Assembly (NCBI GenBank): GCA_025057395.1
Contig: JANWXU010000018.1
Coordinates: 1 to 46,403 of the forward strand
Source of the DNA: Bacteroidia bacterium
Lineage (GTDB): Bacteria; Bacteroidota; Bacteroidia; J057; JANWXU01
Direction: 5' to 3'
DNA length: 46,403 nucleotides
Below, one piece after another: positions 6,272-36,110 of the stretch; position 1 is the stretch's first letter, and each line of letters begins with the position of its first letter. The position numbers were made by a program, and so were the translations under genes. The notes beneath the pieces are model-generated. The model did no database searches. It was not told the origin of the DNA and saw nothing but the letters and a program-made list of their open reading frames with translations.

Positions 6272-6298
6272 AAATGTTCCACGTGGAACAATTACTAT
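6272..6298 (+). repeat. 27-base direct repeat, copy 1, containing parS site 1
   Basis: AAA, then the parS palindrome, then ATTACTAT. This unit recurs without mismatch at 6342-6368. The identity beyond the 16 bases that ParB is expected to need suggests recent duplication, or an extra function for the flank. Confidence 0.85.
6275..6290. other. parS: parS centromere site 1
   Basis: TGTTCCACGTGGAACA is a perfect 16-base palindrome that matches the ParB-binding consensus TGTTnCACGTGnAACA at every fixed position. It is intergenic, 28 bases after the TonB receptor stop. It is embedded in a longer direct repeat shared with site 2. Confidence 0.88.
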
Positions 6299-6341
6299 CG
6301 AAAGAAAAATATTTCTATTCTATGCGGCTTTCTAATAACTA

Positions 6342-6368
6342 AAATGTTCCACGTGGAACAATTACTAT
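6342..6368 (+). repeat. 27-base direct repeat, copy 2, containing parS site 2
   Basis: This is an exact second copy of the unit at 6272-6298, offset by 70 bases. The 43 bases between the copies show no obvious further repeat. Confidence 0.85.
6345..6360. other. parS: parS centromere site 2
   Basis: This is a second exact copy of the 16-base palindrome, exactly 70 bases downstream of site 1. The flanks are also shared (AAA before, ATTACTAT after). It lies 67 bases before the aldo/keto reductase start and 25 bases before a possible -7 promoter element. Confidence 0.88.
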
Positions 6369-6385
6369 GACCCAAAGAATTTTAA

Positions 6386-6393
6386 TATCTTTG
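6386..6393 (+). promoter_or_regulatory. Possible -7 element for the aldo/keto reductase
   Basis: TATCTTTG matches the Bacteroidota -7 consensus TAnnTTTG, 34 bases before the ATG at 6428. No good -33 TTTG is seen at the expected distance; parS site 2 ends 25 bases upstream, next to where it would lie. Confidence 0.3.
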
Positions 6394-6427
6394 TGATTAT
6401 CTGAAAAATTAAAGGCAAAATAATAAA

Positions 6428-7462
6428 ATGAAGTATAAGTTATTAGGCAAAAGTGGATTACGAGTTTCAGAGCTTTGTTTAGGCACACTAACTTTTGGAG
6501 AAGAATGGGGTACAGGTGCTTCTAGAGAAGAATCTTATAAAATATTTGATGTATTTGTGGAAGCAGGAGGAAATTTTATTGATACTGCTAATTACTATAC
6601 TGGGGGTACTAGTGAAAAAATTGTGGGAGAATGTATTGCAAGAGATAGGGATAAATTTGTGGTAGCTACTAAATATACTTTGCATAATAAGGCGGGGGAC
6701 ATAAATAGTTGTGGCAATCATAGGAAAAACCTACTTGCTTCTTTGGAAGGAAGCTTGAGTCGTATGAAAACTGATTATGTAGATATCCTTTATTTACATG
6801 CTTGGGATTTTACTACTCCCGTAGAAGAAATTATGAAAACTTTAGATAGCTTGATACAAAGCCGAAAGGTTTTGTACATTGGTATTTCCGATACACCCGC
6901 CTGGATAGTTTCTCAAGCTAATACTTTAGCTAGCCTTCGAGGATGGGAAAGTTTTATTGCTTTGCAAATTGAATATAGTCTAATAGAAAGAGCAGCCGAA
7001 AGAGACCTTATACCCATGGCAAAAGCTTTTGAAATGAGTATACTCGCCTGGGGTGCCTTAGGAAGCGGTTTACTAACAGGAAAATATAATAAGAATAATC
7101 TTGATAATCCTAACTATCGTCTTAAAGAAGGAAGCAGAAGGTTTACCGAAAGAAATTGGAAAATAACTGAAACAGTAGTAGCCACAGCTTTTGAATTAGG
7201 TTGTAAGCCTTCTCATGTTGCCCTTAATTGGATACGCAAAAAAAATTCACAAATAATACCTATTATTGGTGCTCGCAGTAGTTCTCAACTCCTGGATAAT
7301 ATCACTGCTTTGAATAATGAACTACCTGATAGTTACTACATGCAACTGGAAGAAGTGAGTAAGATTGAATTAGGATTTCCACATGACTTTCTCGAAAGCG
7401 ATAACATAAAGCAGGTTATTTTCGGCGGAACTTATGAATTGTTAGAGTCGTTTAGAAAATAG
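6428..7462 (+). CDS. Aldo/keto reductase
   Basis: This 344-residue protein has the aldo/keto reductase TIM-barrel pattern. The start MKYKLLGKSGLRVSELCLGT is typical of the AKR11-14 type group. The catalytic tetrad can be read as D52, Y57 (DTANYY), K82 (ATKYTL) and H124 (YLHAWD). The family reduces aldehydes or ketones with NADPH in the cytosol; the substrate is unknown. It is a single-gene unit with its own terminator downstream (7489-7522), set between parS sites 2 and 3. That position is probably incidental to its function but makes the locus recognisable. Confidence 0.92.
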   Translation: MKYKLLGKSGLRVSELCLGTLTFGEEWGTGASREESYKIFDVFVEAGGNFIDTANYYTGGTSEKIVGECIARDRDKFVVATKYTLHNKAGDINSCGNHRKNLLASLEGSLSRMKTDYVDILYLHAWDFTTPVEEIMKTLDSLIQSRKVLYIGISDTPAWIVSQANTLASLRGWESFIALQIEYSLIERAAERDLIPMAKAFEMSILAWGALGSGLLTGKYNKNNLDNPNYRLKEGSRRFTERNWKITETVVATAFELGCKPSHVALNWIRKKNSQIIPIIGARSSSQLLDNITALNNELPDSYYMQLEEVSKIELGFPHDFLESDNIKQVIFGGTYELLESFRK

Positions 7463-7488
7463 CGCATTTTTTAATTTTTACTTTTTTG

Positions 7489-7522
7489 AAGCGATAGGTT
7501 AATTTTATCCTATCGCTTTTTT
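7489..7522 (+). terminator. Intrinsic terminator of the aldo/keto reductase gene
   Basis: A 10-base perfect stem (AAGCGATAGG at 7489-7498 with CCTATCGCTT at 7509-7518) and a 10-base loop are followed by a run of T. It sits 27 bases after the stop codon and 9 bases before parS site 3. Confidence 0.85.
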
Positions 7523-7530
7523 ATTAAAAA

Positions 7531-7546
7531 TGTTCCACGTGGAACA
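7531..7546. other. parS: parS centromere site 3
   Basis: This is a third exact copy of the 16-base palindrome, directly after the terminator of the aldo/keto reductase and 59 bases before the mnmG start. It lacks the ATTACTAT extension of the first two. ParB-binding sites next to gidA/mnmG are common in origin-proximal regions of bacterial chromosomes. Confidence 0.88.
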
Positions 7547-7605: not shown

Positions 7606-9468
7606 ATGCAAACTCAGTATGATATTATTGTAGTAGGGGCAGGCCACGCTGGCTGTGAAGCAGCTAATGCTGCGGCAAATATGGGCTGTAAGGTGTTATT
7701 AATTACGATGAATATGACAACTATTGCCCAGATGTCGTGCAATCCGGCCATGGGGGGAGTAGCCAAAGGCCAAATCGTTAGAGAAATCGACGCTTTGGGA
7801 GGCCTTTCAGGTATTATCACGGATAAAACAATGATTCAATTTAGGATGCTTAATCGCTCAAAAGGTCCGGCTATGTGGAGTCCTCGTGCACAGTCTGATA
7901 GAATGCGATTTGCAGAAGAATGGCGCCTAGCTTTAGAGACCAATCCTAATATTGACTTTTGGCAAGATATGGTACAGAGCCTACTAATAAAAGATTTTCG
8001 GGTTCAGGGTGTACGCTGTGCTATGGGAAAAGAATTTTTTAGCAAAGCAGTAATTCTTACTAATGGCACTTTCCTTAATGGATTAATTCATGTTGGAGAA
8101 AAGAAATTTTCAGGCGGAAGGTCTGGTGAAAAAGCTGCTACAGGCCTTACTGAACAACTTATATCCTTAGGTTTTGAAACAGGTAGAATGAAAACTGGTA
8201 CCCCTCCTCGCATAGATGGTAGAACTATAGATTATAGCAGATTAGAAATCCAACATGGGGACGAACCCCCAGGTAAGTTTTCGTTCACTGATACTCCTCC
8301 TTTAGAACATCAAATTCCTTGTCATATTGGTTATACTAATAAAGCAGTCCATGCTCTAATTGCTGATAATATTCACAAGTCTCCTATGTATAATGGGCAA
8401 ATACAAAGTGTAGGTCCACGTTACTGTCCTTCTATCGAAGATAAAATTGTACGTTTTTCAGACAAAGAAAGACATCAGTTATTTATTGAACCCGAAGGGC
8501 GGCGTACCATAGAAGTTTATTTAAATGGTTTTTCCTCGAGTTTACCTGAAGAAATACAATACAAAGCTTTACGCCAAATAGAGGGATTTGAAAATGCAAA
8601 AATGTTTCGACCTGGTTATGCTATAGAGTATGATTATTTTCCGCCGCACCAACTACGTCTTACTTTGGAAACTCAGGCAATAGAAAATCTCTATTTTGCG
8701 GGTCAAATTAACGGTACTACAGGGTATGAAGAAGCAGCCGCACAGGGGATTATGGCGGGAATTAATGCAGCCCTAAAAATTCAAAGAAGAGAACCTCTTA
8801 TTCTTAAAAGAAATCAAGCTTATATAGGTGTTCTAATTGATGATCTGATTAATAAGGGTACCCAAGAGCCTTATCGAATGTTCACCTCGAGAGCGGAGTA
8901 CAGAATTTTGTTACGCCAAGATAATGCCGATTTACGCCTTACTGAAATAGGCTACCGAGTAGGTACTATTTCTGAACAGAGGTACCAGGAATTCCTAAGG
9001 AAAAAACAAACAATTGAAGAACTAATGAACATGGTAAAGGAACTTTCTATTTCACCCGAAGAAGCCAATCCTTTTCTGGAAACTCTTGGTGAGAGTCCAC
9101 TAAAACAAAAAATTAAAGTAAGTCAACTACTTTTGCGTCCTAACATTAGTTTAGAACATATTTGTAAAATGTTACCTACCTTTAATCACAAACTTCAAGT
9201 TGCAGAGAAGGAGGTTAAAGAAGAGGTAGAAATTCAAGTTAAATATCAAGGTTATATAGAAAGAGAATCGGAGATGGCTAAAAAATTAGAAAGACTAGAA
9301 GAAATAAAACTTCCTGAAAACTTTAATTACTATAAGCTACAATCTCTTTCTAATGAGGCAAAAGAAAAGCTTAATAAGATAAAGCCCCAAACCTTAGGAC
9401 AAGCTTCTCGGATTAGTGGTGTAAGTCCTGCCGATATTTCTGTACTTATGATATACATGGGTAGATAA
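7606..9468 (+). CDS. mnmG: tRNA uridine-5-carboxymethylaminomethyl(34) synthesis enzyme MnmG (GidA)
   Basis: At 620 residues it has the normal family length. The FAD-binding GAGHAG motif is at residues 11-16 (VVGAGHAGCEAA). Family blocks such as MSCNPAMGGVAKGQIVREID, MKTGTPPRIDGRTID and GTTGYEEAAAQG are intact, and the C-terminus ends in ISGVSPADISVLMIYMG. With MnmE it installs the carboxymethylaminomethyl group on uridine 34 of several tRNAs, using FAD and methylene-tetrahydrofolate. mnmE is not in this window. The gene stands alone between parS site 3 and a terminator whose stem overlaps its stop codon. The name gidA reflects its frequent place near the origin, which agrees with the adjacent parS cluster. 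Confidence 0.98.
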   Translation: MQTQYDIIVVGAGHAGCEAANAAANMGCKVLLITMNMTTIAQMSCNPAMGGVAKGQIVREIDALGGLSGIITDKTMIQFRMLNRSKGPAMWSPRAQSDRMRFAEEWRLALETNPNIDFWQDMVQSLLIKDFRVQGVRCAMGKEFFSKAVILTNGTFLNGLIHVGEKKFSGGRSGEKAATGLTEQLISLGFETGRMKTGTPPRIDGRTIDYSRLEIQHGDEPPGKFSFTDTPPLEHQIPCHIGYTNKAVHALIADNIHKSPMYNGQIQSVGPRYCPSIEDKIVRFSDKERHQLFIEPEGRRTIEVYLNGFSSSLPEEIQYKALRQIEGFENAKMFRPGYAIEYDYFPPHQLRLTLETQAIENLYFAGQINGTTGYEEAAAQGIMAGINAALKIQRREPLILKRNQAYIGVLIDDLINKGTQEPYRMFTSRAEYRILLRQDNADLRLTEIGYRVGTISEQRYQEFLRKKQTIEELMNMVKELSISPEEANPFLETLGESPLKQKIKVSQLLLRPNISLEHICKMLPTFNHKLQVAEKEVKEEVEIQVKYQGYIERESEMAKKLERLEEIKLPENFNYYKLQSLSNEAKEKLNKIKPQTLGQASRISGVSPADISVLMIYMGR

Positions 9469-9518: not shown

Positions 9519-11420
9519 CTATATCTTTATCTTCTTTATTATTTGTTGGGCTAAGTTAGGATTTACCTTTTTTAGATGTTCCAAGCACTCACGAGCTTTA
9601 GGAGTAGCATTTTGAGATAAGTACCAGTAAATTTTGTTTTCTAGTGCTTTGCTATTATCAGGATCTAACTTTAAAACTGCTTCTATGAACATATGGGCTT
9701 TGTTAAATTCTCCTGAGTTCAAATAAATAAAGCTTAGGTTATTAAGGGTAGGAATATCGCTAGGTTTTACTTTATAAGCCTTTAGCAATAAGCTTTTAGC
9801 TTTTTCAAAAGTTGCTACATCTTTTTGCTTTCTACTTTGCTTTAGAAGCAGTATAGCTGCCCTATTATATGCCTCTACTAAAGAAGGATATGCTTCGATG
9901 AGGCTAGTAAGCTCTTGGATGGCTTCATTGTATTTTCCTAAACTTTCTAGAACGTTGGCTAAATGAAAAATAACAAGAACATCTGTAGGTTGCTTAGCTT
10001 TTGCTCTTTGGGCTAGCTGAAGAGCCTTCTCTAAATTACCCCTGTAAAATAAAACTTTAGAGCGCTCTAAGAAACATTCTTCCCCTAAGTAGGAAAGTGC
10101 TAGATCTAAATATTTTTCATTATTTTCTTGCTGCTCATAATAGTAAAGATAAGCCTTTCCTATATTACTTGTAGAAGGAGTATTAGAAGTAGCACAAAGT
10201 AGCTTTAAAAAGTTAACTTCCTGGATTTTGTGAAAAGGAGTTTTAGATTTTTCAGAATTAAGTGGCTTTTTTATAGAGCGAATAAAATGGTCGGTAAAGT
10301 TTACATGAGGGATATCGCTCGTGTTGCCCTTTGGCATATGGCAAGCGGTACAGTTATAGTTCGTCTTCATTAATTCTTCCCTGGAAGTAGAGCAGGAGGC
10401 GTGGCATTTCTGGCAAATTTGATTATAAAATATGATGCTACTACCGTGAATACTTTTGTGAGGGTCATGGCAAGTAATACAGGTAATCTTGGCTTTTTGA
10501 AAACATTTTGAATAACGAAGTCTTTCTGCATGAGAGGCGATACCAAAGCTTGTAGAATCCTTCCTTTCCGGAAGAAATACGTCAAATGCTTTATGTAAAG
10601 CCATTCCTGGACGGAACTCTTGGGCGCTATTTCTTACTACTATGCCTTGCAAATGACACTGCTGGCAAACATCAAATTGTAAATCAATAGGTAATTTAGA
10701 GGGGTTTACTATAGTATAATCAATTTCTTTTTCTACGTCTACAATTTCGTCTTTTTCCATTGCTTGTACGTGTAGTTGCCCTGGCCCATGGCACCGCTCG
10801 CAATCGATACCTAATGGAATGTGTTCATACTTATTAACTGTACCGCTTACCATTTTCGGGTAAGCATTATGGCAAGCCATACATTCATATCCGATAGCTC
10901 TTTCGAATCTAGTATTTTTTCCCCCTTCATATCCCGGACTTAAATCCCATTTTTTACGCGCTACGTACCATGTAATGGGGGCTTCATATAAAAAACCATT
11001 TCTTAAAATAAGGTAGGAGCGTGTTTGATTACCCGAGCCTACGATGTAATCAATTTTTTCAATTCTCTGATAGATTGTATCTTGGTTATTAAGCCGAAAC
11101 TCCTTTATGTATAGATTTGCTTCTTTCCAAAAAGCTTGATAGTAAAAGTTAGAATAGCTATCATAAACAATTTGTCTAAAATCTTCAATTTTTTCTTGTT
11201 CATTAGGTTTATAAAAAGACCTGCCCATTCCTGTTTGGATATAAGACTGGTAAATTTCTTGATGACAAGAAGCACATTTTTGAATACCTACATATTTTAC
11301 TTCAGGGGCTAAGTTGTAATAGTTTTTTTGAGTAATTTTACAACTTTGAAATTGAAAAAAAATACTTATGCTTACAAAGCAAATAGTTGTTATCGTGTAT
11401 TTTTTGCAAGTTATTACCAT
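9519..11420 (-). CDS. Seven-haem c-type cytochrome with C-terminal TPR domain, probable lipoprotein
   Basis: This 633-residue protein has seven CxxCH haem-attachment motifs: CASCH (from residue 49), then CMACH, CERCH, CQQCH, CITCH, CQKCH and CTACH, all in the first about 370 residues. The C-terminal half carries several tetratricopeptide-like helical pairs (for example LVEAYNRAAILLLKQS and ALQLAQRAKAKQPTDVLVIF). The N-terminus is a hydrophobic export segment ending at FQSC (C27), which may be a weak lipobox. It therefore probably acts in the periplasm as an electron carrier or nitrite/sulfur-type oxidoreductase relative, but no catalytic family could be assigned. No haem-lyase or quinol-oxidase gene is adjacent. 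It converges on mnmG. Confidence 0.85.
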   Translation of the reverse strand: MVITCKKYTITTICFVSISIFFQFQSCKITQKNYYNLAPEVKYVGIQKCASCHQEIYQSYIQTGMGRSFYKPNEQEKIEDFRQIVYDSYSNFYYQAFWKEANLYIKEFRLNNQDTIYQRIEKIDYIVGSGNQTRSYLILRNGFLYEAPITWYVARKKWDLSPGYEGGKNTRFERAIGYECMACHNAYPKMVSGTVNKYEHIPLGIDCERCHGPGQLHVQAMEKDEIVDVEKEIDYTIVNPSKLPIDLQFDVCQQCHLQGIVVRNSAQEFRPGMALHKAFDVFLPERKDSTSFGIASHAERLRYSKCFQKAKITCITCHDPHKSIHGSSIIFYNQICQKCHASCSTSREELMKTNYNCTACHMPKGNTSDIPHVNFTDHFIRSIKKPLNSEKSKTPFHKIQEVNFLKLLCATSNTPSTSNIGKAYLYYYEQQENNEKYLDLALSYLGEECFLERSKVLFYRGNLEKALQLAQRAKAKQPTDVLVIFHLANVLESLGKYNEAIQELTSLIEAYPSLVEAYNRAAILLLKQSRKQKDVATFEKAKSLLLKAYKVKPSDIPTLNNLSFIYLNSGEFNKAHMFIEAVLKLDPDNSKALENKIYWYLSQNATPKARECLEHLKKVNPNLAQQIIKKIKI

Positions 11421-29906: not shown

Positions 29907-32900
29907 TTAGCTTCCTAGTATACTAAGTTCTTGTTTTAGGGCCCTAAGGGTTTGATGGTAAAGTTGTTGTAGTTGCTCAAAAGTGAAAGTAGATATTGTT
30001 ACTTGGTCTTCGAGGGTATTGCGTTCTAGTTGTTCCAAAAGCTGGCCTAGGTGCTTGGCTCCAATGCTAAAAGCGCTTCCCTTGAATTTATGGTATTTAG
30101 CCTTTAGCTCTGCTCCCTTGAGGTTTTTTACTTCGGAAAAAAATTCTAAAGCACTTTGTTCAAAAAGCTCGACCAATTGATTCACTGTTTCTGTGCCTTT
30201 TGCTTGTCCTATTTTTTTGAGCAAATCAATTTGGTCCTTTTCGAGTAAAGAACTTTCTTGCTTATCTACCCAAGGAATAGAAATAGGTTGACCTACGCTA
30301 GTGATGTTGGATGGGTGTTGAAATAACTTTTGTATACAGTTTTGTATATCAATAGGATGTATGGGCTTAACAATATAGTCTTTCATTCCTGCATTAAGCG
30401 CCCTTTCTTTTTCTTCTTTGAGGGCATTCGCAGTGAGAGCCACTACTACAGGGGGAGGATATCGATGTTCTGTATTTTGAGAAGTAAGATATTGCATAGT
30501 TTGTAAGCCATCGAGTTCGGGCATATTGAGGTCCATAAGCAGTAGGTCGTAAGATTTTTGTTTGAGAGCCTCTACTACTTGTAAACCATTTGTAACTATA
30601 TCTGGTTTATAACCAAGACCTTCTAAGATGAGTTGGGTAAAGCGTTGATTAACAGGATTATCTTCAGCTACTAAAATTTGGAGTGGAATTTTAGTACTAA
30701 GTAATGGGTCGAGCTGAGGTACGGTAACAGTTTTTTTTAGCTCCACGTCTCTATTTTCAAAAATATTAATAATTAATTCAAGTAAAGGAATTTGTTTGAT
30801 GGGCTTATGAATAGGATAAATTTTTAGGTTGTCGTATTTAAAGATGCTTGTACTGTTAAGAGGCAGAAGAATGATAATATTCGTAAGGTTGGAAAACCCG
30901 CTAAGGTTTTTTAAGAAATAGGCAATTGATTCATCGCTAGAGGAGAAGTCTATAATAAAAAGGTCGATTGTAAATTGGTTGATTATGGCTTGAGCTTGGG
31001 AAATATTTTGCACCTCAAAAAGGTTAGCAGGACTTAGTAGTGAACAGGCATAACCAAGAGCCCCCTGGGTAATCCAATTTTGACAAAGAATCAAAATATT
31101 TTTTTGCTTAAAAGTAGGCCATTCAAAGCGGTAAGGACTATTACTATCAAGGGGCAAGTTTACATAAAAACAGGAGCCCCTTTGTGGTTTACTTTTAACC
31201 TCGATAGTTCCTCCCATTAGCTCCACTAAGTGTTTGCTAATAGTAAGACCTAAACCTGTGCCTCCATACTTTCTAGTGGTGGAATAGTCTGCTTGAGTAA
31301 AAGCTTTAAAGATTTTTTCTATAGCTTCTGGCTCAATACCAATTCCAGTATCACAAACACAAAATAACAAGTGATTAGGAGTTTCACTTTTTTCAACTGT
31401 AAGAATAATAGCTCCTTGGGAGGTAAACTTAATAGCGTTATTAAGTAAATTAACTAATACTTGTCGTAAACGTACGGGGTCGGCTTCTATATACCGAGGT
31501 ATATTAGGATGAATAACTTGAACTAGCTCTATATTTTTAGAGAGTGTTTGAGGAGCAAATAAGTCAAAAATATCATCAATAAACTCTGCTAAGTCGATAA
31601 ATTGAAATTCTAGTTCTAATTTGCCTGATTCTACCTTCGAAAAATCTAGAATATGATTAATAATTTTAAGTAAGGCTTCACTGCTATTTCGGATGGTTTC
31701 TACAAATTCTAGTTGCATTTCATTAAGTGGGGTATTAAGTAGCAAGTCAGTCATTCCGATGATGCCGTTCATGGGAGTACGTATTTCATGGCTCATGGCA
31801 GCAAGGAATTCCGATTTTGCTTTATCTGCCGCTTCCGCCTCTTCTTTTGCTTTTTGTAATTCCATTGCAATTCTTTTCCTTTCCGTAATATTTAGTGTGG
31901 TTCCTACTAAACGTAGAGGATTATTTTCTTCGTCCCAAGCAACTACTTTAGCTCGCGATAATACCCAAAGCCACTCGCCTGCAAAGGTTTGAATACGAAT
32001 TTCCTTTTCTAAAATTGGAGTTTGCCCCGAAAGATGTTTTACAATAGCTGCTTTGAAATCTTCAATATCATCAGGATGGCACAAATTAAAGAGATTGATT
32101 TTGTGCGGATCATTTTCATCTATCGAATAGCCTAACATTTTTAACCATTGAGGAGATAAATACATTTGGTTAGTTTTTAGGTCCCAATCCCAAACGCCAT
32201 CTTGTGTACTTTCCAAAGCAAGATTTAAGCGTTCTTGGCTTTCAATTAGGGCTTCTTCTACTTTTTTTCTTTCGCGTATATCTATTAAAGAGCCTACAGT
32301 ACCTAGTATAACATTCGTTTCGTCTCTTCGAATTTTAGTATGTATTTCCACCCAGTGAAAGGTATGGTCACTATTAAGTAGTCGGAGTTGGGTCCATACT
32401 TCAGTTCTGGTTTCGGCTAGTAGTTCTTCTAATTCTTTCCTTAGCAAGGGTCTATCCAAAGGATGAATGTAGTCGAATAAATTTTTATATAGGGTTTGCT
32501 CGATAGAAAAACCACTAATATCCTTCCAACTAGGACTTAAAAACTGCCAATTAAAGTTAGTATCAGTATAGAAAAGAGTTTCTTGTAAATTTTCGACTAC
32601 TGTTTTATAAAGCAATTCAGTTTTTCGTGCCAATTCTTGCTCTTTTTTCCTTTCTGTTATATCCATAGCGGTTCCTAGTATAGTGGTAGGTGAGCCTACT
32701 GCGTTTTTTTCAAATACTGTGACGCGAGTACTAAACCAACGCCATTCGCCTTTATTGTTACGTAAGCGTACTTCAAATTCGATAATGGATTGGGGGGAGT
32801 TGTTTAGTTCGCTTTCCAATTTTTCAAGCTTTTGCCAATCTTCGGGATGTACCATTTTCCTTATAGCGCTTGGTCCCAAGCGAAAGAAGAATTCAGGTTC

Positions 32901-35900
32901 TAGTCCTAGCATACTATAAGCCCGCTCATTTACATACATGAAACTTCTTTGTTCTAATTTGTAGATGAAAAGAACTTGGGGTATAGTAGCAATAATTTGT
33001 TCATTAAATCGCTTACTTTCGCGCAATGCTTGCTCGGTTAATTTTAGACTGGTGATATCTCTACCTACTGCTTGGAAAACTAAAGGTACTCCCGCTTCAT
33101 CAAAAATGCCGCGAATCGTCCATTGTAGCCATCCTACTTGCTGATCGGGAAGAGTAATCCGATGCTCTAAAGTAGCAACAGGCTGTGAGAGTTGAAGCTT
33201 ATCTATAGTTTGTACTAAGATTTGGCGATCTTCTGGAAAAATGTTAGGTAAGAAAGGCTTGCCTAATACTTCAGTAGCACTTTTACCAACGTAGCGACAA
33301 TAAGCTTCATTCGCAAAAGTGAGAGTAAGATCGGGCAAGTAACGGCAAATAAGCTCGGTGTGATCTTCAATAATCGCTCTATATAGAGCTTCACTTTGTT
33401 TAAGGGCTTTTTCTATATTTTTTTCAGTAGTAACATTTCGAATTACTACAATAGTACCCCCATACACATAGTGAGAAAACCTAGCTTCATAAGTAATTTG
33501 TTTTCCTAAAAGAATATGCACATATTCTAGAGTAGCAGTGTATTTAGGTTGGTTGTTGACTTGCTCCAAAGTTTGCAATACTGCATTAGCTGAAAGTGAA
33601 GGAAAAATTTCCCATAATTTGCTTCCTATTATTTGTGGAAAGGAGTTAAGCCAGTCTTCAGAGGGAGGAATTTTGTAGTCTACTATGCTTCCCTCAGCTG
33701 AAAGGCGAAAGTAAATATCTGGTAGGGCTCGTAGAACAGATTCTAATTCCTCATTTCTCTGAAGAAGTTCTGTTTGGACGCGCTTTAATTCAGTAATATT
33801 TACGGAAACAACTAGTAAATTATACGTGCCACCAGGCCTCAGTAGAGGTTTTCGTATAGTGCGAAACCATAAAATTTCTCCATTAGGAGTAGAAAAAGGC
33901 TCCTCCGTCTCGAGAGTTTCTAACTTTTTTAGTACTTCAATATCTATTACTTCGCGTGTTTCAAAGTTAGTTTTATCCTCCTCGGAGGGAGGATGAGGGG
34001 CGGGGGTGCAGATTCCCTTATTTTTGAGAACTCGTTGGGCGGTTTGATTAGCAAAAATATATTCTCCTTTTTTATTTCTTACATATACAAGATTGGGATC
34101 AGTATCCAGCACTTGCTGCATAAAATTACGCTGCGCTTCTAATTCTGCGAGGATAGTTTCTAGTTGTTGATTCCGCTGCAAGATGGCGAGTTCATTTTTT
34201 TTCTTTTGTGTGATATCTACACTAATGCCTAATATGTTAATAGTACCATCTTCATAAATAAGGGGCTTGCGAACAGTGTGGAGCCAGATTTCTTCTCCTT
34301 GTGGGTTTACAAATTTTTCTTCGTAGACTAAAGTTTGAAGCTCTTGAGTTACAGCCGTTACTGGATTATTTCCCTGAGTTATGTGTGCAAATTTTTTAAT
34401 AGCTTCCTCAGGACTAAGGTTTTCTTGAAAAAGCTTTTTTTCTATGAAATCATAAAAAGCCTGATTGGTAAAAATAAAATTGCCTTCTCTATCCAAAACG
34501 TATATTAAACTAGGATCGGTATCCAAAATATGCTGCATCAAAGTTTTTTGCTCCGAATATTGCTTTAAGATGACTTCTAACTCCCGATTACGAGCTAATA
34601 ACTGATCAGCAAACTGCTTTTTTTCGGTAATATCTACTGCTATTGTCAGCATTTGAGCTTCTTGCGAAGCAATAAGTAAAGGCTTATGAATGACTTGGAA
34701 CCACGAAGAGGCGTTGTTAGAACTATCTTCTATAAGTTTTACTTCTCTTAAAATTGTTTTTTGTTGCTCAATTGCCCATTCGGGAGCTTTGAGAAGAGTA
34801 AAAAATTTATGTTGTTGTAGTAAGGAATAATCTTCTAGACTGTTAGTAGCTATATCTGGAATGGAAGATTTTGAAAGTAAAGCTTTTAAAGCCTTATTAG
34901 CAAATAATAAATTACCCGAAGAATCCTGTACAAAAATAAGGTTAGGATCAGCATCTAGCACTTGTTCCATGAAAGATTTTTGCGATAAAACTAATAACTC
35001 AGCTTCTTTAGACTGAGTAATTTCAAGGGTAAAGCCGACAATATAAACATCATTATCTTTAGAAAGTTCGACGCATTTTTTGCCTGAATAAAAATATCGG
35101 TATCGGTTGCCTATCCAGTTTTTTTCGATTTGGAAAAGCGGTTGTTTTTTGGTTAAAATTTGACGATCCTCCATTTCTACGAACTTGGCTTCTTCGGGTG
35201 TTAGGTAAGCGGATGCTGTTTTGCCTAATACTTGATGCTTGGGTAGGCCTACTATCTTGGCAGCTTCTTCATTGAAGTGAATATATCTACCGCTTTTATC
35301 TTTCAGATAAACTGCTAGGGGTAAAGCATCTAAAACTTCGGAAAGAAAAAATTGTTCCCTTTGAGTTTTTTGTTCAGCATCGATTAGTTCGGATACATCC
35401 TCAGCTAGGATAAAGGCACCCAGTACCGTGCCCTGGGGATCTAGCCATGGAAAGAATTTCCATTTTAACCATCTAATTCCTCCCTGTACCTCATTATAAG
35501 TAAGGGGGGGAGAAAAAGCAACTTGCCCTTCGAGCGCCTGCTGAAGGAGAGGAAGATGCCAATTTGCTAAATCAGGAAAAATGGAAGAATGCTTTTGCCC
35601 TGTTAGATTTTGTTGGGGTAAAGATAAAAGTTGAAAATAGGCTTTATTAGCAGCAATATATTTGCCTGTTAGGTCTACTACAGCTAAAGGACTAGGAAAG
35701 AGATGGATTAACGAATTAAAAAAAAACTGATTGGTTGGTTCTAAGCCAATTGCTACTATCCAAGGGGTATCTAGAGAGGAAGAAAAAGTTTGAATATTAT
35801 ATTGCCATAAAAGATTAACTACTTTTCCTTCCCTGTTTTTCCAGGGAAATTGAAAAAAAAAACTTATTGCTTCTACTGTTGGAGCAGGCTTTTCAATATC

Positions 35901-36110
35901 TAAGTCGGGGGGCAACTCAGTAGAAGCAGGTTTAAATACTATTTCCGTAATAGATTTTTGAGTAATTTCATCACGTGAAAAACCTAATAGCTTTTCTGCC
36001 GCTTTATTTATCCATTGAAATTTTTTGTCCTGCCCAATGCATATTACGGGCTGAGGTAGTCTATCTAGTATTGCATATTCTTCTCTCTTATTAAAACTCA
36101 ACAAGCTCAT
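29907..36110 (-). CDS. 2067-residue soluble hybrid histidine kinase with 11 PAS, HisKA, HATPase, two receivers and HPt
   Basis: PAS-type regions begin near residues 12, 129, 255, 378, 520, 660, 795, 908, 1035, 1167 and 1293, several with PAC ends such as ITQSKEAE, ITERKKEQ and IRERKKVEE. The kinase core follows: H1441 in MSHEIRTPMNG and HATPase motifs (DTGIGIEPEAIEKIF, GGTGLGLTIS). A first receiver (about 1690-1790) lacks the acidic pocket, and the second has D1860 in LLLMDLNMPELDG. The HPt domain has H2007 in YHKFKGSA. No transmembrane helix or signal is seen, so the protein is probably cytosolic. It makes its own phosphorelay, H1441 to D1860 to H2007, and needs a separate final regulator. 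Nothing adjacent on the same strand fits. Confidence 0.92.
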   Translation of the reverse strand: MSLLSFNKREEYAILDRLPQPVICIGQDKKFQWINKAAEKLLGFSRDEITQKSITEIVFKPASTELPPDLDIEKPAPTVEAISFFFQFPWKNREGKVVNLLWQYNIQTFSSSLDTPWIVAIGLEPTNQFFFNSLIHLFPSPLAVVDLTGKYIAANKAYFQLLSLPQQNLTGQKHSSIFPDLANWHLPLLQQALEGQVAFSPPLTYNEVQGGIRWLKWKFFPWLDPQGTVLGAFILAEDVSELIDAEQKTQREQFFLSEVLDALPLAVYLKDKSGRYIHFNEEAAKIVGLPKHQVLGKTASAYLTPEEAKFVEMEDRQILTKKQPLFQIEKNWIGNRYRYFYSGKKCVELSKDNDVYIVGFTLEITQSKEAELLVLSQKSFMEQVLDADPNLIFVQDSSGNLLFANKALKALLSKSSIPDIATNSLEDYSLLQQHKFFTLLKAPEWAIEQQKTILREVKLIEDSSNNASSWFQVIHKPLLIASQEAQMLTIAVDITEKKQFADQLLARNRELEVILKQYSEQKTLMQHILDTDPSLIYVLDREGNFIFTNQAFYDFIEKKLFQENLSPEEAIKKFAHITQGNNPVTAVTQELQTLVYEEKFVNPQGEEIWLHTVRKPLIYEDGTINILGISVDITQKKKNELAILQRNQQLETILAELEAQRNFMQQVLDTDPNLVYVRNKKGEYIFANQTAQRVLKNKGICTPAPHPPSEEDKTNFETREVIDIEVLKKLETLETEEPFSTPNGEILWFRTIRKPLLRPGGTYNLLVVSVNITELKRVQTELLQRNEELESVLRALPDIYFRLSAEGSIVDYKIPPSEDWLNSFPQIIGSKLWEIFPSLSANAVLQTLEQVNNQPKYTATLEYVHILLGKQITYEARFSHYVYGGTIVVIRNVTTEKNIEKALKQSEALYRAIIEDHTELICRYLPDLTLTFANEAYCRYVGKSATEVLGKPFLPNIFPEDRQILVQTIDKLQLSQPVATLEHRITLPDQQVGWLQWTIRGIFDEAGVPLVFQAVGRDITSLKLTEQALRESKRFNEQIIATIPQVLFIYKLEQRSFMYVNERAYSMLGLEPEFFFRLGPSAIRKMVHPEDWQKLEKLESELNNSPQSIIEFEVRLRNNKGEWRWFSTRVTVFEKNAVGSPTTILGTAMDITERKKEQELARKTELLYKTVVENLQETLFYTDTNFNWQFLSPSWKDISGFSIEQTLYKNLFDYIHPLDRPLLRKELEELLAETRTEVWTQLRLLNSDHTFHWVEIHTKIRRDETNVILGTVGSLIDIRERKKVEEALIESQERLNLALESTQDGVWDWDLKTNQMYLSPQWLKMLGYSIDENDPHKINLFNLCHPDDIEDFKAAIVKHLSGQTPILEKEIRIQTFAGEWLWVLSRAKVVAWDEENNPLRLVGTTLNITERKRIAMELQKAKEEAEAADKAKSEFLAAMSHEIRTPMNGIIGMTDLLLNTPLNEMQLEFVETIRNSSEALLKIINHILDFSKVESGKLELEFQFIDLAEFIDDIFDLFAPQTLSKNIELVQVIHPNIPRYIEADPVRLRQVLVNLLNNAIKFTSQGAIILTVEKSETPNHLLFCVCDTGIGIEPEAIEKIFKAFTQADYSTTRKYGGTGLGLTISKHLVELMGGTIEVKSKPQRGSCFYVNLPLDSNSPYRFEWPTFKQKNILILCQNWITQGALGYACSLLSPANLFEVQNISQAQAIINQFTIDLFIIDFSSSDESIAYFLKNLSGFSNLTNIIILLPLNSTSIFKYDNLKIYPIHKPIKQIPLLELIINIFENRDVELKKTVTVPQLDPLLSTKIPLQILVAEDNPVNQRFTQLILEGLGYKPDIVTNGLQVVEALKQKSYDLLLMDLNMPELDGLQTMQYLTSQNTEHRYPPPVVVALTANALKEEKERALNAGMKDYIVKPIHPIDIQNCIQKLFQHPSNITSVGQPISIPWVDKQESSLLEKDQIDLLKKIGQAKGTETVNQLVELFEQSALEFFSEVKNLKGAELKAKYHKFKGSAFSIGAKHLGQLLEQLERNTLEDQVTISTFTFEQLQQLYHQTLRALKQELSILGS
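33780..34990 (-). repeat. Three PAS modules with duplicated sequence inside the large kinase
   Basis: The modules starting near residues 378, 520 and 660 share the pattern QVLDADPNLIFVQDSSGNLLFANKAL, repeated as QHILDTDPSLIYVLDREGNFIFTNQAF and QQVLDTDPNLVYVRNKKGEYIFANQTA when aligned in short blocks. They are spaced about 140 residues apart. They are far more alike than the other PAS domains, so a local duplication is likely. Confidence 0.75.

Follow-up and report, generated by a model that had tools for sequence, protein, structure and literature searches.

Predicted chromosomal parS sites of a ParABS partition system upstream of mnmG in a Bacteroidia genome

The stretch of Bacteroidia DNA analysed here, 46,403 bp in length and referred to as the window, contains three copies of a perfect palindrome, TGTTCCACGTGGAACA, upstream of mnmG. 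These palindromes are almost certainly chromosomal parS sites of a ParB/ParA partition system, and the sister chromosomes would separate at this locus. The sites and their partner proteins are predicted to constitute a standard chromosomal ParABS system in which ParB would bind the palindromes, because the 16-mer is identical to two of the four origin-proximal sites of P. aeruginosa (parS2 and parS3 of parS1-4; PMC4368675) and a canonical ParB-ParA pair is present in the genome. As a chromosome partition site the locus is genuine but unremarkable and of a known kind, and the data show no departure from the established ParABS mechanism. An earlier, sequence-only reading of this DNA had proposed a centromere-like partition locus. 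The exclusive cluster of sites, the canonical ParA and ParB and the conserved linkage to mnmG all agree with that proposal, in which binding by ParB is predicted.

The parS sites and their neighbouring genes

Perfect palindromes had been reported at three positions in the sequence-only reading, and all three were found to be exact matches to the 16-bp parS palindrome consensus, TGTTNCACGTGNAACA (Table 1). By the gene calls of the window, all three sites are intergenic: sites 1 and 2, which are spaced 70 bp apart, have a TonB-receptor-like gene on one side and an aldo-keto reductase gene on the other, while site 3 is located between the latter gene and mnmG, at the position just 5' of the start codon that is the usual place of parS in the relatives. 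The sequence that site 3 has in common with sites 1 and 2 is limited to the palindrome plus AAA. The neighbouring gene had been recognized earlier as mnmG (gidA), and its match to TIGR00136 bears this out.

Table 1. Predicted parS sites and neighbouring features of the window, and the parAB genes on contig C165 of the same genome
Feature	Location	Strand	Remarks
TonB-dependent receptor-like gene, 796 aa	3857..6247	+	left of the sites; outside the partition locus
parS site 1, TGTTCCACGTGGAACA, perfect palindrome	6275..6290	no strand	exact match
parS site 2	6345..6360	no strand	exact match; 27-bp repeat AAATGTTCCACGTGGAACAATTACTAT common to site 1
aldo-keto reductase family gene, 344 aa	6428..7462	+	between parS sites 2 and 3
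inverted repeat then T run	7489..7518	+	probable terminator of the aldo-keto reductase gene
parS site 3	7531..7546	no strand	60 bp 5' of the mnmG start codon
mnmG (gidA), tRNA U34 modification enzyme	7606..9468	+	TIGR00136, E 5e-268
ParB	C165 1164-2054		GERRLQA motif, CTP-binding and HTH domains
ParA	C165 2095-2904		KGGVGKTT motif; adjoins ParB

No further copy of TGTTCCACGTGGAACA with three or fewer mismatches was found in the window (the mean in shuffled sequence was 0.06), nor was any with two or fewer mismatches found in the draft genome of 4,080,717 bp and 244 contigs. The whole-genome search that the sequence-only reading had suggested thus found copies clustered here only, with all those of the genome inside 1.3 kb. 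From base composition, 5.5e-6 exact copies would be expected in the window and 5e-4 in the genome, in line with the earlier statement that a chance copy is unexpected. A chance or low-complexity match, the probability of which is negligible, is refuted by these exact copies, by their exclusivity in the genome and by the conservation of the site across the order that is described below.

Other parts of the window include, both on the minus strand, a gene for a 633-aa protein with multihaem cytochrome c motifs (CXXCH) and a TPR domain (9519-11420) and a very long open reading frame of 2067 aa (29907-36110).

The ParA-ParB partner and the predicted mechanism

The sequence-only reading had made the partition locus dependent on a ParB gene in the genome. 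A profile search of the genome's contigs found a single, canonical ParB (PF02195, E 7.8e-36) with ParA beside it, and the one canonical ParA-ParB operon of the genome is located on contig C165, separate from the parS window. This ParB is homologous to Caulobacter ParB 6t1f (E 2.7e-49), is aligned over most of its length with both Caulobacter 6t1f and B. subtilis Spo0J, and possesses the GERR CTP-binding motif. It has Arg and Gly where R173 and G201 of the Caulobacter protein align, which we take to be the positions separating ParB from Noc, whereas Noc 7ng0 has Gln and Arg. Against the Noc model TIGR04285 it scores 250, the cut-off being 315. With ParB residues at both discriminating positions and a score below that cut-off, the possibility that the palindromes are Noc sites was rejected.

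The same protein bears on whether the sites belong to an integrated partition system of the plasmid or mobile type, which we regard as very improbable. Such a source would suit a draft of 244 contigs in which parAB is not adjacent to the sites, but the sole ParB found belongs to the chromosomal type, and mnmG, to which the sites are linked in more than one order, is a core gene; a plasmid par site was rejected on the latter two grounds.

For chromosomal ParABS systems, a review describes how ParB, once loaded at parS, forms a closed CTP clamp and slides out, and how ParA moves the resulting complex, which in several species loads SMC (PMC7022226). From this established knowledge we infer binding, sliding and segregation at the sites of the window as well. 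ParB, which is encoded with ParA on the other contig, would load on the three sites as a CTP-dependent clamp and would then slide across the neighbouring kilobases. ParA would move the resulting ParB-DNA complex, by which the sister chromosomes would separate at the parS locus, and the complex may also load SMC. In addition to the identical 16-mer, the predicted system resembles that of P. aeruginosa in its small cluster of sites at the putative origin region and in its canonical ParA and ParB. It differs from the latter in that parAB is on another contig, that the three sites are the only ones of the genome, and that dnaA lies away from the origin in the close relatives of the window.

Linkage of parS to mnmG in Bacteroidota

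Exact parS sites, 32 in total, were found in 17 of the 22 genomes of the order, across which the reversed control pattern gave 0 matches. Comparison of their positions with those of mnmG revealed that 28 of the 32 sites are at most 1.5 kb upstream of this gene. Of the remaining four, two come from genomes in which the link is obscured because a contig is broken or mnmG is missing, and the other two are found in G018, on a different contig from mnmG. Imperfect parS sites occupy the same place upstream of mnmG in G003, G019 and G021. In G001 (L018, L162), ParB is present and consensus parS is absent both genome-wide and upstream of mnmG.

Linkage of parS to mnmG extends beyond the order. A site with no more than one mismatch lies in the 2.5 kb upstream of 41 out of 80 mnmG loci of named Bacteroidota, including those of Flammeovirga, Pontibacter, Algoriphagus, Crocinitomicaceae and Bacteroidales, while most of the mnmG loci of Saprospiraceae are without parS over that distance. 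In this phylum sample, mnmG is the gene most often linked to parS. In the MnmG tree, the window groups with other members of its order and apart from the named rows of Saprospiraceae, Cytophagales and Flavobacteriales. The position of parS directly upstream of mnmG is also shared with Pontibacter, Flammeovirga, Crocinitomicaceae and Cyclobacteriaceae. Other Bacteroidota usually have a single site or a pair, 30-80 bp before mnmG, whereas in the window the aldo-keto reductase gene separates two of the three sites from mnmG. No aldo-keto reductase gene was seen near mnmG in the relatives examined, and for this reason the gene was probably inserted into the parS cluster.

This close linkage also raises the question of whether the palindromes serve not as a centromere but as regulatory operators or hairpins of mnmG or of the aldo-keto reductase gene, which we consider quite improbable. 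Site 3 is only 60 bp before mnmG, many relatives have a site 20-80 bp before the mnmG start, the mnmG start codon of G019 is inside parS, and a hairpin scan calls sites 2 and 3 terminator-like on the minus strand, all of which would be compatible with regulation. However, the 16-mer is identical to known ParB sites, the sites of G018 remain with ybeY while its mnmG is on another contig, and two loci of Saprospiraceae have their sites just downstream of mnmG. The presence of two or three copies, some of them far upstream of mnmG, also suits partition better. As parts of a partition locus, the sites may still allow ParB to have a side effect on mnmG expression. Separately, in G019 (L032, about 180-205) the mnmG start codon was observed inside an almost perfect parS, ATGTTCCACGTGGAACC, which is read as MFHVEP; two codons before this start codon, an in-frame stop is present.

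The origin region and the placement of dnaA and parAB

The position of parS relative to the origin was examined in G005 (7.54 Mb) and G015 (8.16 Mb), two near-closed relatives from one family. In 20-kb samples, GC skew is negative before and positive after parS in both genomes, and with dense sampling the skew minimum was found at most about 20 kb (G005) and about 80 kb (G015) away from parS. Because all seven locations of 16S matches in the two genomes read away from parS, this minimum represents the origin and not the terminus. DnaA boxes just left of parS number 4 and 5 per stretch, versus a mean of 0.59 per 20 kb. Across eight genomes, DnaA boxes peak 7-8 kb upstream of parS, with 18 of the 32 falling into a 2-kb slot (6.5-8.5 kb upstream) against an expectation of 1.7; this slot was picked post hoc, and its P value is descriptive only. 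The pooled skew changes from -0.034 to +0.098 at the same slot. Given the skew minimum, the 16S matches that read outward and the DnaA-box cluster, parS therefore marks the origin region in the near-closed relatives. The GC-skew plot suggested by the sequence-only reading thus places the same site, beside the same gene, at the negative-to-positive switch in G005 and G015.

In Flammeovirga (L218, L221, L223, L224), 12-16 DnaA boxes were observed 4-10 kb downstream of the mnmG start. The parS of Flammeovirga pacifica (3.435 Mb) is at a negative-to-positive switch, between the samples at 3.25 and 3.50 Mb. Compared with the order of the window, the oriC of Flammeovirga is likely on the opposite side of mnmG.

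In eight relatives, the genes are arranged in the order of oriC slot, thiL, an exo/endonuclease-family gene, a DUF4175 gene, a histidine-kinase-like ATPase gene, ybeY, parS and mnmG. In the genome of the window, thiL to ybeY are found on the 7.5-kb contig C71, where a different gene follows ybeY, while parS and mnmG are found in the window behind unrelated genes. Consequently, the break in the ancestral block separated ybeY from parS, which remained with mnmG. The opposite break occurred in G018, where parS was kept with ybeY and mnmG is on another contig; in this genome (L163, 5417-5874), parS overlaps the 3' end of ybeY, the tail of which is YYDVPRGTKK.

The ends of C71 have no overlap with the left end of the window, and for the acyl-CoA dehydrogenase gene found beside oriC in G005 and G015, only weak paralogues occur in the window's own genome. 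There is no skew switch at the parS sites in the window, the skew being positive over most of both sides. Nor is there a DnaA-box cluster: the window contains one box, and at one or fewer mismatches its densest kilobase, at 41 kb, contains 3. Judged from its kin, the locus would be proximal to the origin. The earlier claim that the origin is near would thus hold by analogy with the kin, which have the switch at parS; the window itself, on a contig too short to show it, has neither a switch nor a DnaA-box cluster, and the block is broken.

The sequence-only reading had also proposed dnaA as a landmark, which would have misled. The coordinates of dnaA and parS are, respectively, 25 and 3,794,367 of 7,538,910 in G005 and 2,671,019 and 6,776,046 of 8,164,022 in G015, so that the distance between them is 50.3% of the chromosome in both. 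The positive-to-negative skew switch, at the skew maximum, is within tens of kilobases of dnaA in G005 and within about 0.4 Mb of it in G015. Hence, dnaA is diametrically opposite parS/oriC, near the terminus, in these two genomes. In Flammeovirga, the distance between dnaA and parS is 1.0 Mb. The distance between parB and parS is 2.4 Mb in G005 and 3.2 Mb in G015, and that between dnaA and parB ranges from 0.9 to 1.4 Mb in the two. In the genome of the window, dnaA and parAB are on contigs other than the parS contig. This separation counts against the partition reading, as do the broken block, the lack of a skew switch and the lone DnaA box of the window, and G001 with its ParB but no consensus site. 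On contig C73 of G013 (76809-81664), dnaA and parB were observed only about 3 kb apart.

That this lineage distributes functions normally found together at the origin along the chromosome by a fixed plan, in which oriC and parS share one pole, dnaA is at the terminus and parAB is between, is a tentative idea that we hold to be rather unlikely. If it is true, dnaA dosage would be lowest during fast replication, which is a possible built-in control of initiation. Upon breakage of the block, parS stays with either of its two neighbours, a behaviour relevant to how centromeres hold their position. In draft Bacteroidota genomes, in which dnaA misleads, parS beside mnmG is a dependable marker of the origin.
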